Translations under genes and position numbers: made by a program
Notes under the pieces: model-generated
What the model was told of the DNA's origin: nothing
Database searches by the model: none
The model's input: only the letters and a program-made list of their open reading frames with translations
Part shown: in pieces, positions 32,806 to 43,851 of the stretch
Layout: each line of letters begins with the position of its first letter
How positions within the stretch are numbered: position 1 is the stretch's first letter
Assembly (NCBI GenBank): GCA_015233015.1
Contig: JADFYO010000028.1
Span: 1 to 44,278, forward strand
Length of the DNA: 44,278 bases
Reading direction: 5' to 3'
From: Nitrospirota bacterium
GTDB taxonomy: Bacteria; Nitrospirota; Thermodesulfovibrionia; Thermodesulfovibrionales; Magnetobacteriaceae

Positions 32806-33225
32806 ATGGATAGTTATGTAAAGAATTTTATTATTGCAAGCGTTGTGTATTTGGGAATATCGTCGTTGTTTGGCATAATGATGATGGCCTCCCCCGCCCA
32901 TTTGACATTGAAATTCGTGCATTCACACCTTATGTTATTAGGCTGGGTAACGATGATGATATACGGCGTGGGCTATCATGTGCTACCAAGATTTGCAGGC
33001 CGTCTGATAAAAAGCCGCAAGGCAGCCGAGGCACAGTTCTGGCTTGCAAACATTGGACTAATCGGCATGGTCATTAGCTACACAATCCCCGCATATTACA
33101 GCGCGCAGGAATGTGTATTAAGAATAGCAGGCGCCGCGTTTGGCATCATGGAAGCCGCGTCAATTATGCTGTTTGTATATAATATGCTAGCCACATTGGT
33201 TCCAAAACCAGAGCATCCGGCATAA
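32806..33225 (+). CDS. small heme-copper-oxidase subunit I-like membrane protein
   Basis: The 139-residue protein has four membrane helices. Helices 1-2 with H32, H39 and H41 (VHSHLMLLGWVTMMIYGVGYH, His58 at its end) resemble the N-terminal helices of the NorB/CcoN group of heme-copper oxidases, where such histidines bind the low-spin heme. It is far too short for the full 12-helix subunit and has no later copper or heme histidines, so it is not itself an oxidase. It may be a heme-binding or redox-sensing relative, or a subunit of a split complex. GGAGGT precedes the ATG. An FNR-like box lies upstream. Confidence 0.7.
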   Translation: MDSYVKNFIIASVVYLGISSLFGIMMMASPAHLTLKFVHSHLMLLGWVTMMIYGVGYHVLPRFAGRLIKSRKAAEAQFWLANIGLIGMVISYTIPAYYSAQECVLRIAGAAFGIMEAASIMLFVYNMLATLVPKPEHPA

Positions 33226-37702: not shown

Positions 37703-39298
37703 CTAATCCGGCTTAAGCGGTTTATCTCTCAGGTGATTTACGATGCAGAAAAAACCAAACGGCCCTTCGGCACCCTCGTTGCGAAGCTGATGTACGTGAA
37801 GCGGCGGCACACAGGCAATATCAAATGGCCGCAAGGTGAAACTCCGTCCGTCACAAATCAGTGTACCCGTACCCCGGACGCATATGATTACATGGACATG
37901 GACATGCTTCTCTAAAGAGGAAAACCCTCCATGTTCAATTTGAAAATATCTCAAATCATAATCTGTCTGCACGCCGGTTTTACCAATCAGTTCGTGCCTT
38001 GTTATTCCCTTAAAATCGAATTCTCCGCCGGTCTTATACACAACGGGTTTTACGCCGTCCCAATGGTAGTCCCCGCCGAATGCCAAATGAATTTTCTGCG
38101 CGCCTGACAGCGTACTCCCCGAATTTAAATCACACGACGATACGGCGGCAGAGGGACTGAAAGCCGGCGTTTCTAAACGCTCACTAAAAAACCCGCGTAT
38201 CTTATCCATAAAAACGCGTGTGCCGACAGATAGATCATTATCTTGAGCGTGCAGTGCCCCGCCTATCAGGTAAATCGTGTCAGGGCCGTAAAGCGCCGCC
38301 ATTTCGGCAATATTATCAAGGGCCATGCCGCCAGCAGGTGCTGGAAACGACGGGTTCATACGGCCAAGGCTGCCCCGGAGTGCGTTATTCAGACGTACGC
38401 ACTCATCTGAACTAAAACTGAACCTGCCCCCGGCGTTCGGATAAATTGATACATCCGCACCGGCAAGACGAAAAATCGTGCCCAGAAGCAGAGACGGCGC
38501 TATGCCGTGGCGTGGGTCATGAAAATTTGTCCCCGTGAGTGCCGGGTGTGCCATTACAACAATTGGATAGTTCGAAGCCAGATGCCTTACCGTATCCAGA
38601 CCAACAAGATATGGGGCAATTAATATACCGGCGGCACCGTGGCCTGCGGCAAACTCCACCTGCCGTTCTATGTCACCAAACCCGGCCAGTATGTTGGGGA
38701 TATAGAGACATTTCCTTCCGGTTTTATCTGCCGCCCTTTCGACTGCCTCGAGGCACCAGAGCACGCGTTGTTCAAATCCGCAGAAACTGTGGTCAACGAG
38801 GCCGTGGTCGTCCTTCACAATGTCACCTCCGCCAATGGCGAAGGCAGAGGCGGTTGCGGCAAGTTCGGCGGCATCAGCCCCCATAGGTTTCAGCGCCGTG
38901 GCAAGCAGTGGCCTGCCGTAAACACCAGTTAACGCCCTGACGCCTTCAATCCCATAGTTCGGGCCTTTAAATTTATCGAGAAACTGCCGGGGAAATTCAA
39001 TGCCGGTGACTTTAATATTTGTCTTAATCGATATATTGCCGTAGAGGACATTTAGAAACTGCGGCAGCTGCCAGCCGGTGATTTCAGCAGAATATTCGAT
39101 TTCGGCGGCATAGCGGCCACTGTCTAAGGGTGCAATTTGCCTTATCGAGCCGGTTATACTCCCCGTTATTTCCTCTTTCAAAGGGAATTCAACGGGCAGT
39201 TCTACCGTTTGCTCATAAGCAATCGCTTTGGCAGCCTTATGCGCGTCTGCGGCATCTTTGCAGGTCAGTTCATATGTTACGACAATCGGGTTATCCAT
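37703..39298 (-). CDS. RuBisCO-like protein fused to a C-terminal cupin domain
   Basis: Residues 1-375 are a RuBisCO-like protein: N-terminal domain with EQTVELP (29-35), then the barrel with TALKPMG (Lys137), GGDIVKDDHG (Lys162, Asp164, His165 where the RuBisCO carbamate Lys-Asp-Glu triad lies), AHPALTG, SIYPNAGGRFSF and PAGGMAL. Loss of the metal-site Glu and of loop 6 indicates form IV, not a carboxylase. Residues about 400-531 form a cupin with HVHVH (465-469) and PPLHVHQLRN (498-507), likely metal ligands. In R. rubrum separate RuBisCO-like isomerase and cupin methylsulfurylase catalyse consecutive steps of the methylthioadenosine-isoprenoid shunt; a fusion would suit that. Other form IV reactions (isoapionate type) remain possible. 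It ends the glgA-containing run. Confidence 0.85.
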   Translation of the reverse strand: MDNPIVVTYELTCKDAADAHKAAKAIAYEQTVELPVEFPLKEEITGSITGSIRQIAPLDSGRYAAEIEYSAEITGWQLPQFLNVLYGNISIKTNIKVTGIEFPRQFLDKFKGPNYGIEGVRALTGVYGRPLLATALKPMGADAAELAATASAFAIGGGDIVKDDHGLVDHSFCGFEQRVLWCLEAVERAADKTGRKCLYIPNILAGFGDIERQVEFAAGHGAAGILIAPYLVGLDTVRHLASNYPIVVMAHPALTGTNFHDPRHGIAPSLLLGTIFRLAGADVSIYPNAGGRFSFSSDECVRLNNALRGSLGRMNPSFPAPAGGMALDNIAEMAALYGPDTIYLIGGALHAQDNDLSVGTRVFMDKIRGFFSERLETPAFSPSAAVSSCDLNSGSTLSGAQKIHLAFGGDYHWDGVKPVVYKTGGEFDFKGITRHELIGKTGVQTDYDLRYFQIEHGGFSSLEKHVHVHVIICVRGTGTLICDGRSFTLRPFDIACVPPLHVHQLRNEGAEGPFGFFCIVNHLRDKPLKPD

Positions 39299-39325: not shown

Positions 39326-39844
39326 TCATACGTCGATATAGTCGATAAGGTCAGGGATCTGCTCTTTTACTTGTTTTTTAGATTTCTTCTTCACCGCGCG
39401 TTCAAAAAAACTTTTGAGGAGCAGCTTGTCACCTGCTTCAGGCATGTCATATTTCAAATGATCGGTTATGAGATCGACTGTAGAGCGGTACTGTATCGGG
39501 TCTTTGTGTTTATCGATGCCGCGGAGAATTCCTATGAACTGGGCAATAGCCTCAACGGCTGCCAATGCCGATGCAAGTTCAGCGCCGGGGACAGACTTGG
39601 ACTCGGAGTCCTCAACCCCGAATTCCATATCTTTCAGAAGCTCTTCCTTTATCACTGAAAGCGTAATCCTTCCGGCAAGCGGGTGTTTTATATGTGGAAC
39701 TGCGAGGACTAAAAACCTGTAGTATTCGTTAGCAAGCGTATTTGCCAGCTCACGGGAAAGATCCTTGACGGTATTTATCTCCGCCCTGATAAGCTGTTCA
39801 CATAGAGGCATGAGATCCTCGTCAGGTATCGGCTTCTTAGTCAT
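39326..39844 (-). CDS. unknown helical protein between glgA and the RuBisCO-like gene
   Basis: The 172-residue protein is soluble, predicted mostly helical and highly charged, with a lysine-rich tail (FFERAVKKKSKKQVKE). I do not recognise it. Its start overlaps the glgA end by 8 bases (39837-39844) and the RuBisCO-cupin gene starts 27 bases after its stop, so the three are probably co-transcribed. A Ser/Ala-rich middle segment (VEDSESKSVPGAELASALAA) may be a linker. No function is proposed. Confidence 0.65.
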   Translation of the reverse strand: MTKKPIPDEDLMPLCEQLIRAEINTVKDLSRELANTLANEYYRFLVLAVPHIKHPLAGRITLSVIKEELLKDMEFGVEDSESKSVPGAELASALAAVEAIAQFIGILRGIDKHKDPIQYRSTVDLITDHLKYDMPEAGDKLLLKSFFERAVKKKSKKQVKEQIPDLIDYIDV

Positions 39845-41568: not shown

Positions 41569-42771
41569 TTAATTATATCTCAGGACTTTTCTCTCTGAAT
41601 GAACGGGAAACTCCAGCCCTTCTTTGTGGATATATACGAGCTTGGCCTCAATCTTCACGAGTTTCTCACGCTCTGGAAAGACGGCGTAGTACTCTTCGGT
41701 GGTAGTCTTCCTTGGCTGAAGAGAATAGTCCAGAATATCCTTTATTTCCCATGTGTCATAGCGCCGGTTGCCTTCTATGTCGAGACCTGGCTCAAAGAAT
41801 TCCTTCTGAGCTGACCATATCACCTTATCATTATCGTCTGTTGCCGTTACCGTGAGGAGCACGCGCGATGTCCACATGCAGCCGTCAGGGATTCTGTGCC
41901 CAGCCTTATTTGTTATATCTACGGTTATAGCCGCCGCAGGGAACCATTTCTTTTCACCGTATGATTGCGTTTTAAACGCCCTTGCATTTACCTCCAGAAG
42001 CATTCCCTCTTTAAGCATAACGGGAGCGTAGGCACCGGGGAAGGTGTGCCCACGATTGCTTTTGGTCATGTGGCATTCCTGGCATGTCGTCTGCCCTCCT
42101 GCGGCAACGTACTGGTCACGGTAGCTTTGCGCTATGGTGCTGCAAATTATCCGTTCACTGTCGGGGGCGGTGTAAAGCCCATGGCACTGCATACAGAATA
42201 TGGAATTATCGAGATATGTGGTCTTTTTAATGGTGTGATATGCAGCGTTTCCTTTAATATTACCGGGACCATGGAGACCGTAAACGGTTTGCTTTTCGGG
42301 CGTGTGTGGCGGCGGTACGGCCCTAAGATTATGGCACGTATAGCAGGAGACATTTAAATGGGAGAGCAGTTCTTTTGCCTTTTTCTTACCTTCGGGGTTT
42401 GCAGATTTGCCGCCCGCTATTTTAATCGCATCAACCACTTCTTTAATAAATTTATCTGAGGCATACTCCATAACGGGGGCGTGGCAGTTCAGGCATTTCA
42501 TCAGCTCACCCTTCAGGGGCAGTCCCTTTCTTATGGGGTCTTTCTCTATACCGTCAACTATAAATGAGTAGATACCGTCTATCGAGTGAAGCAGCGATGA
42601 TGAATGTAACGACATTTTCCATTGCGTATTGATATCGCCGTGGCAGGCGGCACACGCTTCGGAAGTATTTAAAATATCCGTTGCATTTTCTATCATCACC
42701 CCAAGGGCTTCAGCGGGTGTTATCACCAATAAAAACTTCAAAAAAATTGCCAACAACAGGTATCTCTTCAT
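41569..42771 (-). CDS. secreted pentaheme c-type cytochrome
   Basis: The 400-residue precursor has a signal peptide (residues 1-23) and five CxxCH heme sites: CAACH, CLNCH, CYTCH, CMQCH and CQECH, all in the first 240 residues. The last third is a beta-rich domain starting near ITVDITNKAGHRIPDG, a segment common in multiheme cytochromes. It should be periplasmic and carry electrons. The gene lies 33 bases after the YeeE/YedE transporter stop, with GAGG 8 bases before the ATG, so the two are co-transcribed. That pairing suggests a role in oxidation or reduction of a sulfur compound; this is inference. Confidence 0.9.
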   Translation of the reverse strand: MKRYLLLAIFLKFLLVITPAEALGVMIENATDILNTSEACAACHGDINTQWKMSLHSSSLLHSIDGIYSFIVDGIEKDPIRKGLPLKGELMKCLNCHAPVMEYASDKFIKEVVDAIKIAGGKSANPEGKKKAKELLSHLNVSCYTCHNLRAVPPPHTPEKQTVYGLHGPGNIKGNAAYHTIKKTTYLDNSIFCMQCHGLYTAPDSERIICSTIAQSYRDQYVAAGGQTTCQECHMTKSNRGHTFPGAYAPVMLKEGMLLEVNARAFKTQSYGEKKWFPAAAITVDITNKAGHRIPDGCMWTSRVLLTVTATDDNDKVIWSAQKEFFEPGLDIEGNRRYDTWEIKDILDYSLQPRKTTTEEYYAVFPEREKLVKIEAKLVYIHKEGLEFPVHSERKVLRYN

Positions 42772-42804
42772 AAGCGTAACCTCATAAGTTCACAGATTTA
42801 TTTG

Positions 42805-43851
42805 TCATTCTATATCCATAGGCCGGATAAACTTAATATAGACCATAGACCAGTTCCCAAGTATTATAAAGATAATCGTAACAAAACTCGATACTGCGAG
42901 CGTTGAAGCCCCGGTCAGGCCATGGCCGATGTTACATCCCCCGCCGACAACTGCGCCAAACCCCATGAGAAGTCCGCCCATGAAGGCATCTATGGTCTCA
43001 TTAGCACCACATGATTTTAGTTTAAACTCCCCGCGTCGTCTGCTGCTGAGGTATGAGCCAAACACCATGCCAAGGATCAAAAAGACACTCCACGTAGGGT
43101 CATCCCCCTGCGTAACCCATCTGAACAGTTCCACCGTCGGGCCGGTGAAGGACATCCCGCGCGCCTTGCCGCCGAAATAATCTGAAGCCCACCATGCTGC
43201 AATTCCGATAAGCCCCAGGAGCGGCCCGGCGACATACCACGAGTAACCGGAGCGTGACTTATGGAACTCTCCCTTGAGGATAAAAAATAATATGGCGGCC
43301 CCCAGCACTGCTACGACTACCCACTTATTGATGCCAAAAAGGTTATAGAGCGTCAGCGGGTAGATGTCCGCATGTGAGGCCCACGCAGTTTCGACCTCTT
43401 TGGTGGTGAGGAGTTTAAGGCCGCTTCCGGTAAGCCAAACCTGGTAGTTGGAGAGTGACTGATTAAGCCGGAGAAGCATCCCTTCTGAAGTGGTTACAAT
43501 CCCTATAAAAAAACCAAGCACAGAGACCCATGCCGGCACAATCCCCTCGCCGAGTTTAAACCAAATGCCGCTGGCGCACCCGCTTGCCATCACTATCCCG
43601 ATACCGAATAAATAACCGCCCATGATGTTGGCAACAGGCATAAACCCCTGCCGGTAGAGTACCTTAATAATGCCGGTATCCTCAAGCAGGTTCGCCCCGA
43701 TTATCATTATTAAAAGCGCGGTGAGATAGGCCTTGAAAACCTCCATGTTTTTGACCAATAGCATATCCCTGAAGGCCGAGTTCATACAAACCCTACCCCG
43801 CTGCAACACCCACCCCAACAATATCCCCACAATTATCCCTGATATTACCAC
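42805..43851 (-). CDS. YeeE/YedE-family sulfur-compound transporter
   Basis: The 348-residue membrane protein has the YeeE/YedE layout, a duplicated helix bundle with the motifs IVMASGCASGIWFKLGEG and VVGGGCNIGHGLTGAS. Three cysteines, Cys22, Cys92 and Cys306, fall where the thiosulfate transporter TsuA has three conserved cysteines; that comparison is from memory. Thiosulfate uptake is therefore the best guess; selenium- and sulfur-trafficking homologs exist. The start is GTG 43851, with only a weak GAGG 10 bases upstream. The partner gene downstream is a pentaheme cytochrome. Confidence 0.85.
   Translation of the reverse strand: MVISGIIVGILLGWVLQRGRVCMNSAFRDMLLVKNMEVFKAYLTALLIMIIGANLLEDTGIIKVLYRQGFMPVANIMGGYLFGIGIVMASGCASGIWFKLGEGIVPAWVSVLGFFIGIVTTSEGMLLRLNQSLSNYQVWLTGSGLKLLTTKEVETAWASHADIYPLTLYNLFGINKWVVVAVLGAAILFFILKGEFHKSRSGYSWYVAGPLLGLIGIAAWWASDYFGGKARGMSFTGPTVELFRWVTQGDDPTWSVFLILGMVFGSYLSSRRRGEFKLKSCGANETIDAFMGGLLMGFGAVVGGGCNIGHGLTGASTLAVSSFVTIIFIILGNWSMVYIKFIRPMDIE

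Follow-up and report, generated by a model that had tools for sequence, protein, structure and literature searches.

A RuBisCO-like protein fused to a cupin in a relative of magnetotactic Nitrospirota, a predicted bifunctional enzyme of the methylthioadenosine-isoprenoid shunt

The fusion gene and its surroundings

The window, a stretch of 44,278 nucleotides, carries on its reverse strand a single gene in which a RuBisCO-like protein (RLP) is joined to a cupin. Pfam searches of the 531-residue product detected RuBisCO_large (residues 117-350, 6.7e-21) and Cupin_2 (residues 452-519, 3.7e-9), both above the gathering cut-off. The start codon is accompanied by no strong Shine-Dalgarno sequence. 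An AlphaFold2 model calculated from an alignment of 59 relatives reached a mean pLDDT of 91.7 and revealed two well-folded domains. The initial annotation of this locus had proposed such a fusion, and the open reading frame, the Pfam domains and the PDB matches confirmed its position and content. The motifs quoted there were also found: KDDH corresponds to K162-H165, HVHVH to H465/H467/H469, and PPLHVHQLRN contains H503. The features of the gene are as follows.

37703..39298 (-), RLP-cupin fusion gene, 531 aa, one uninterrupted ORF with ATG start
38183..39298 (-), RuBisCO-like domain, residues 1-372, DeepYkr clade, predicted 5-methylthioribulose-1-phosphate (MTRu-1P) 1,3-isomerase
38804..38815 (-), KDDH motif, residues 162-165, His where RuBisCO and MtnW have their metal-binding Glu
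38423..38425 (-), R292, aligned to the loop-6 Lys position of RuBisCO
38084..38182 (-), linker, residues 373-405, with a disordered core (384-398, pLDDT <50)
38132..38134 (-), C389, linker Cys in the motif SSC[DE] / xxC[DE]
37706..38083 (-), cupin domain, residues 406-531, predicted 1-methylthioxylulose-5-phosphate (MTXu-5P) methylsulfurylase
37892..37912 (-), cupin metal motif E463-K-H465-V-H467-V-H469, Glu and three His kept in 78 of 78 cupins
37790..37792 (-), H503, final metal ligand of the cupin, kept in 78 of 78 cupins
37745..37747 (-), C518 in GFFCIV, candidate nucleophile, kept in 78 of 78 cupins

The genome from which the window originates comprises 3.78 Mb and is 99% complete. Its nearest named relatives belong to Candidatus Magnetominusculus (76-81% identity), and the host is thus a relative of magnetotactic bacteria within the magnetotactic-type Nitrospirota. 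In the phylum sample the fusion was present in one frame in 12 of the 13 genomes of the family; no match was obtained in the thirteenth, G326, whose assembly is fragmented. An assembly artefact can be dismissed, since 11 additional genomes of the family, and 31 of the 80 named loci discussed below, have the two domains in one frame. No publication describing an RLP-cupin fusion was found; the subscription literature lay outside this search and could contain one.

Between glgA and the fusion gene lies an ORF of 172 amino acids (39326-39844, reverse strand) which matched no Pfam or NCBIfam profile. Its sole relative among the compared loci is a Magnetominusculus protein (L107, 70%). The region upstream of glgA (41569-43851, reverse strand) encodes an ExtKL-like multihaem cytochrome, which scored over the cut-off, and a TsuA-like thiosulfate/sulfur transporter, which scored below it. 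On the forward strand (32806-33225) a membrane protein of 139 amino acids adjoins a Crp-like regulator; its match is confined to part of cytochrome oxidase subunit I (COX1). The glgA/172-aa ORF neighbourhood was considered as a functional clue and rejected, because other fused genes do not share it. It says nothing about the substrate, for which the initial annotation had considered, from the vicinity of glgA, a different compound.

Relationships of the RuBisCO-like domain and the cupin

The best PDB sequence match for residues 5-370 was the R. palustris RLP 3qfw (2e-74), onto which the model of the RLP domain was superimposed with an rmsd of 1.4 A over 349 residues. A phylogenetic tree was calculated from 81 sequences, and a quick tree was also run, with 3qfw as the reference in place of R. 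rubrum Rru_A1998. The fused RLP and 3qfw formed one clade, DeepYkr, with a support of 100/99. MtnW was the sister of this clade, while Photo, OiaX-type and form I RuBisCO sequences were found outside. The DeepYkr RLPs of R. rubrum and R. palustris have been identified experimentally as MTRu-1P 1,3-isomerases (PMC5893883).

The residues K162-D163-D164 were universal among the RLP and RuBisCO sequences compared. The following position was His in 69 of 69 DeepYkr RLPs and without exception Glu in the MtnW, Photo, Oia and form I/II sequences of the comparison. Hence the exchange of KDDE for KDDH, on which the initial annotation had relied, is a true marker of the clade, as derived in this analysis. 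The same annotation had stated that loop 6 is missing, which holds in a loose sense: the loop itself is present, and it is its lysine (K334 type) that is replaced, the corresponding position being aligned to R292. All curated profiles for other functions scored below their cut-offs: the MtnW profiles TIGR03332 and PRK09549 gave 161.5 of 513.6 bits and 219.6 of 409 bits, the OiaX profile NF042437 gave 79.5 of 700 bits, and the type III RuBisCO profile was missed by a wide margin.

A cupin-less RLP related to the fused one is encoded in an operon mtnK-mtnA-tktN-tktC-RLP on a Rhizobium plasmid. This arrangement, with mtnK, mtnA and the halves of a transketolase, ties the RLP clade to methylthioribose. 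A cupin-less branch of the clade was observed behind transketolase genes at several further loci (L223 611-6035; L152, L163, L165, L172, L174, L179-L182). At the two loci inspected for this feature, L174 and L223, the transketolase is split into an N and a C half. This branch is perhaps a further variant of methylthioadenosine (MTA) or methylthioribose salvage.

The fused cupin matched the PDB sequences 3ibm (2.5e-26), 3jzv, which is Rru_A2000 of R. rubrum (4e-21), and 3kgz (2e-19). With the cupin model alone (pLDDT 93), Foldseek returned 3kgz, 3jzv and 3ibm as the top three structures. The entry 3jzv served as the Rru_A2000 reference, the best cupin match among the sampled Rhodospirillales being 68%. 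In the 78 aligned cupins, Rru_A2000 included, E463, H465, H467, H469, H503 and C518 were invariant, and C518 was aligned to the sole Cys within the aligned segment of Rru_A2000 (residues 14-135). The R. rubrum methylsulfurylase reportedly binds the methylthio group to an active-site Cys, so that a methyl disulfide is formed. For R. rubrum and R. palustris it was established by experiment that the cupin adjacent to the RLP is the MTXu-5P methylsulfurylase, and the thiol accepting the methylthio group in R. rubrum is glutathione (PMC5893883).

In the cupin tree a branch with a support of 100/99 parted the fused cupins and the standalone proteins termed cupin B from Rru_A2000, 3kgz, 3ibm and the cupins encoded by adjacent genes. 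The fused cupins formed one group, weakly supported (81/38), and share approximately 35% identity with Rru_A2000. In the comparison with the R. rubrum methylsulfurylase, proposed in the initial annotation, the ligands and C518 are all conserved, and in the cupin tree the fused cupin falls outside the clade of the experimentally supported methylsulfurylases. Because of this position we name it a sister subfamily, which most likely acts like a methylsulfurylase.

Most fused proteins and 7 of 10 cupin B proteins share the linker motif around C389, which the adjacent-gene cupins lack. Since some fused proteins, for example that of Ca. Magnetobacterium casense, do not have this Cys, and the model shows no ordered structure for the linker, a resolving role of C389 is put forward as a proposal only.

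In many Thermodesulfovibrionales-like genomes devoid of an RLP, a standalone cupin B closely related to the fused cupin was observed, in most cases encoded next to a zinc alcohol dehydrogenase (ADH1). These cupins possess the metal and Cys residues of the fused cupin, and sometimes a second alcohol dehydrogenase is encoded nearby (L082, L083, L085, L086, L089-L091).

Distribution of the fusion and the genes of methylthioadenosine salvage

Named bacterial and archaeal genomes were scanned and the 80 best-matching loci, which are not a census, were inspected. Among these, 31 were fused according to an ORF check. In 32 a separate cupin gene lay directly beside the RLP gene, at a distance that mostly ranged from -7 to +64 bases, and the other 17 had no such cupin partner in reach. 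The 32 loci with separate adjacent genes make the two domains a Rosetta-stone pair. Fused genes were found in at least eight phyla, including Nitrospirota, candidate division FCPU426, KSB1, Fibrobacterota, Hydrogenedentota, Sumerlaeota, Planctomycetota (Scalindua, Brocadiaceae, Phycisphaeraceae and others) and Thermodesulfobacteriota (Desulfuromonas).

A single clade of fused RLPs was rejected by the AU test (p-AU 1.5e-5), because unfused RLPs nest inside it. The RLPs of three alphaproteobacterial loci (L151, L155, L162) were placed within the fused RLP clade (100/98 and 99/88). The separate cupins encoded at these loci belong to the Rru_A2000 clade with a support of 100/100; they share 55-56% identity with Rru_A2000 and 37-40% with the cupin of the window. 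An RLP of the fused lineage paired with a cupin of the Rru_A2000 type suggests that the fused RLP makes the substrate of the methylsulfurylase. This partner swap is the strongest indirect evidence for such an activity.

The remaining genes of the pathway were searched in the genome of the window. Here mtnP (G000:C44:49614-50327) and mtnA (G000:C44 54263-55234) were detected above the curated cut-offs on the same contig, 4 kb apart and not adjacent to the fusion, with speD located between them. The third gene for which the initial annotation had recommended a search, mtnK, is absent from the genome, so entry into the pathway would be by phosphorolysis of MTA. The presence of mtnA and mtnP is weak evidence, as both occur in genomes of the order with or without an RLP. 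In other phyla mtnA scored over the cut-off in 29 of the 31 genomes with the RLP family, and in 20 of the 22 with the fused form.

In the window's genome a gene for a polyprenyl diphosphate synthase overlaps the end of mtnA by 4 bases, and the same succession was seen in many genomes of the order (L081 9221-11283; mtnA loci L033-L055). As evidence for the shunt this adjacency was rejected: it is general in the order, occurs also where RLP and cupin were not found, and is consequently not specific. A replacement of Dxs by the shunt was likewise rejected, since the window's genome contains dxs, a gene that scored over the cut-off in 18 of the 19 genomes searched for it. The 1-deoxyxylulose-5-phosphate (DXP) fed in by the shunt would therefore be auxiliary, a supplement to that formed by DXP synthase. 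No O-acetylhomoserine sulfhydrylase was found over the cut-off in the window's genome (best E 3.8e-6), where other PLP enzymes may serve, and of the 13 family genomes a single one had a match above this threshold. In the absence of the R. rubrum-type enzyme, methionine recovery in the manner of R. rubrum is not supported here.

Proposed function, alternatives and implications

The fusion protein is probably a bifunctional enzyme of an oxygen-independent MTA-isoprenoid shunt, and is as such a variant of a known enzyme pair, the members of which are made separately in other bacteria. From the clade of the RLP domain and the residues of the cupin we infer the following sequence of reactions. MtnP would convert MTA to MTR-1-P, from which MtnA would form 5-methylthioribulose-1-phosphate. 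The RuBisCO-like domain would then move the ketone by 1,3-isomerisation to give 1-methylthioxylulose-5-phosphate. In the metal cupin, C518 would remove the methylthio group from the carbon beside the ketone, yielding DXP, and transfer of this group from C518 to a thiol acceptor would release methanethiol. The flexible linker would hold both active sites together, and the second Cys present in the linker of most members, C389 here, could resolve the methyl disulfide of C518 within the protein. Recycling of MTA to an isoprenoid precursor, as put forward in the initial annotation, is thus retained as the best explanation. Three observations named there as speaking against it did not materialize: OiaX-type (isoapionate) RLPs lie outside the clade, the cupin shares all its ligands with Rru_A2000, and both mtnA and mtnP are present.

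The closest known system is the shunt of R. rubrum and R. palustris (Rru_A2000; RPA2169-RPA2170), which has the RLP clade, the cupin ligand set and the Cys in common with the fusion. In both cases the two activities are genetically coupled, and mtnP and mtnA accompany the fusion in its genome. Whereas two genes are used in R. rubrum and R. palustris, the fusion is one polypeptide with a cupin of the sister subfamily and a conserved linker Cys, and its host, from a different phylum, lacks the sulfhydrylase of the R. rubrum type. MtnW (YkrW), the 2,3-diketo-5-methylthiopentyl-1-phosphate enolase, shares the RLP fold and, by prediction, a methylthio-sugar phosphate substrate with the fusion; in contrast, it retains KDDE, has no cupin and belongs to an oxygen-dependent pathway. 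The RLPs of the OiaX/OiaC and Photo types are form IV members of the RuBisCO superfamily like the fusion, but lie outside its clade, and the fusion scored far below the profile cut-off. The MtnBD fusion of Tetrahymena likewise unites the enzymes for two MTA salvage steps and includes a cupin-type one, though these are different enzymes and belong to a different, oxygen-dependent branch (PMC3698126).

The position of the cupin in the tree raises the question whether the RLP domain is an MTRu-1P isomerase whose product undergoes a different reaction in a fused cupin that has drifted in function, for instance an epimerisation or the removal of a different C1 group. The 100/99 branch that sets the fused cupins and cupin B apart from the Rru_A2000 group, and the low identity to Rru_A2000, are consistent with such a drift. 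We nevertheless regard it as rather unlikely, given that all ligand residues and C518 are kept, that fused-lineage RLPs are found with Rru_A2000-type cupins, and that the top structural matches are RLP-linked cupins. It is very unlikely that the substrate is 5-deoxyribulose-1-phosphate, derived from the radical-SAM by-product 5'-deoxyadenosine, or another 1-phospho-ketose instead of a methylthio sugar: a methylsulfurylase-type Cys cupin would have no obvious job in the absence of a methylthio group, and the gene between mtnP and mtnA, speD, is a source of MTA via polyamines. MtnP and MtnA can act on methylthio as well as deoxy sugars, which was counted in favour of this substrate. The same applies to genus g2 (G083, G099), where two genes lie directly downstream of the fusion, one for an LsrF-like aldolase/thiolase and one for a bifunctional class II aldolase/short-chain dehydrogenase, and to the occurrence of the aldolase in 12 of 12 fused family genomes examined. 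However, in the window's genome this pair is not adjacent to the fusion. The pair was located at G000:C116 (L232 5697-8722), L233 6007-9039 and L097 2963-8807.

The reading as an unrelated sugar-binding cupin attached either to an MtnW-type enolase of the universal methionine salvage or to an RLP of the isoapionate type is hardly tenable and already contradicted. Although PRK09549/MtnW was the top-scoring NCBIfam profile, all equivalog cut-offs were missed by far, MtnW and OiaX are placed outside the clade, and H165 occupies the position of the Glu. Furthermore, the genome lacks a stand-alone, MtnB-sized gene of the class II aldolase family. The bifunctional shunt enzyme is kept as the preferred assignment.

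The standalone cupin B proteins permit a more tentative extension of this assignment. An ADH1 ortholog was present in 95 of 101 genomes of the order or class that were counted by hand as cupin-B-like in the phylum sample, and in none of the 18 DeepYkr RLP genomes of the class, even though both kinds of genome occur in families f7 and f12; shared ancestry inflates the count. Possibly, a dehydrogenase pair could shift the ketone of MTRu-1-P from C2 to C4, which would give the product of the RLP, and so take its place. The cupin B/dehydrogenase clusters thereby suggest a route in which no RLP is needed. It is conceivable, if rather doubtful, that the methylsulfurylase cupin is the constant core of anaerobic MTA salvage, with interchangeable feeders in the form of a separate RLP, a fused RLP or a zinc dehydrogenase pair acting by reduction and re-oxidation, and that fused and dehydrogenase-linked cupins contain their own resolving Cys. 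If true, this Cys would free them from glutathione.

The shunt is known from some proteobacteria, Firmicutes and Meiothermus, and 25 species were listed in 2018 (PMC5893883). If the proposed function is right, it occurs as a one-gene module in no fewer than eight phyla, often in anaerobic and uncultured members, with magnetotactic Nitrospirota, anammox planctomycetes, Fibrobacterota and KSB1 among the carriers. Both committed steps in one gene would make the pathway transferable and easy to assay, and the fusion would offer a physical handle on a possible channelling of the unstable intermediate. It would also point to overlooked sources of methanethiol in anoxic water and sediment, which annotation misses because the gene is labelled as a RuBisCO-like or a cupin protein.
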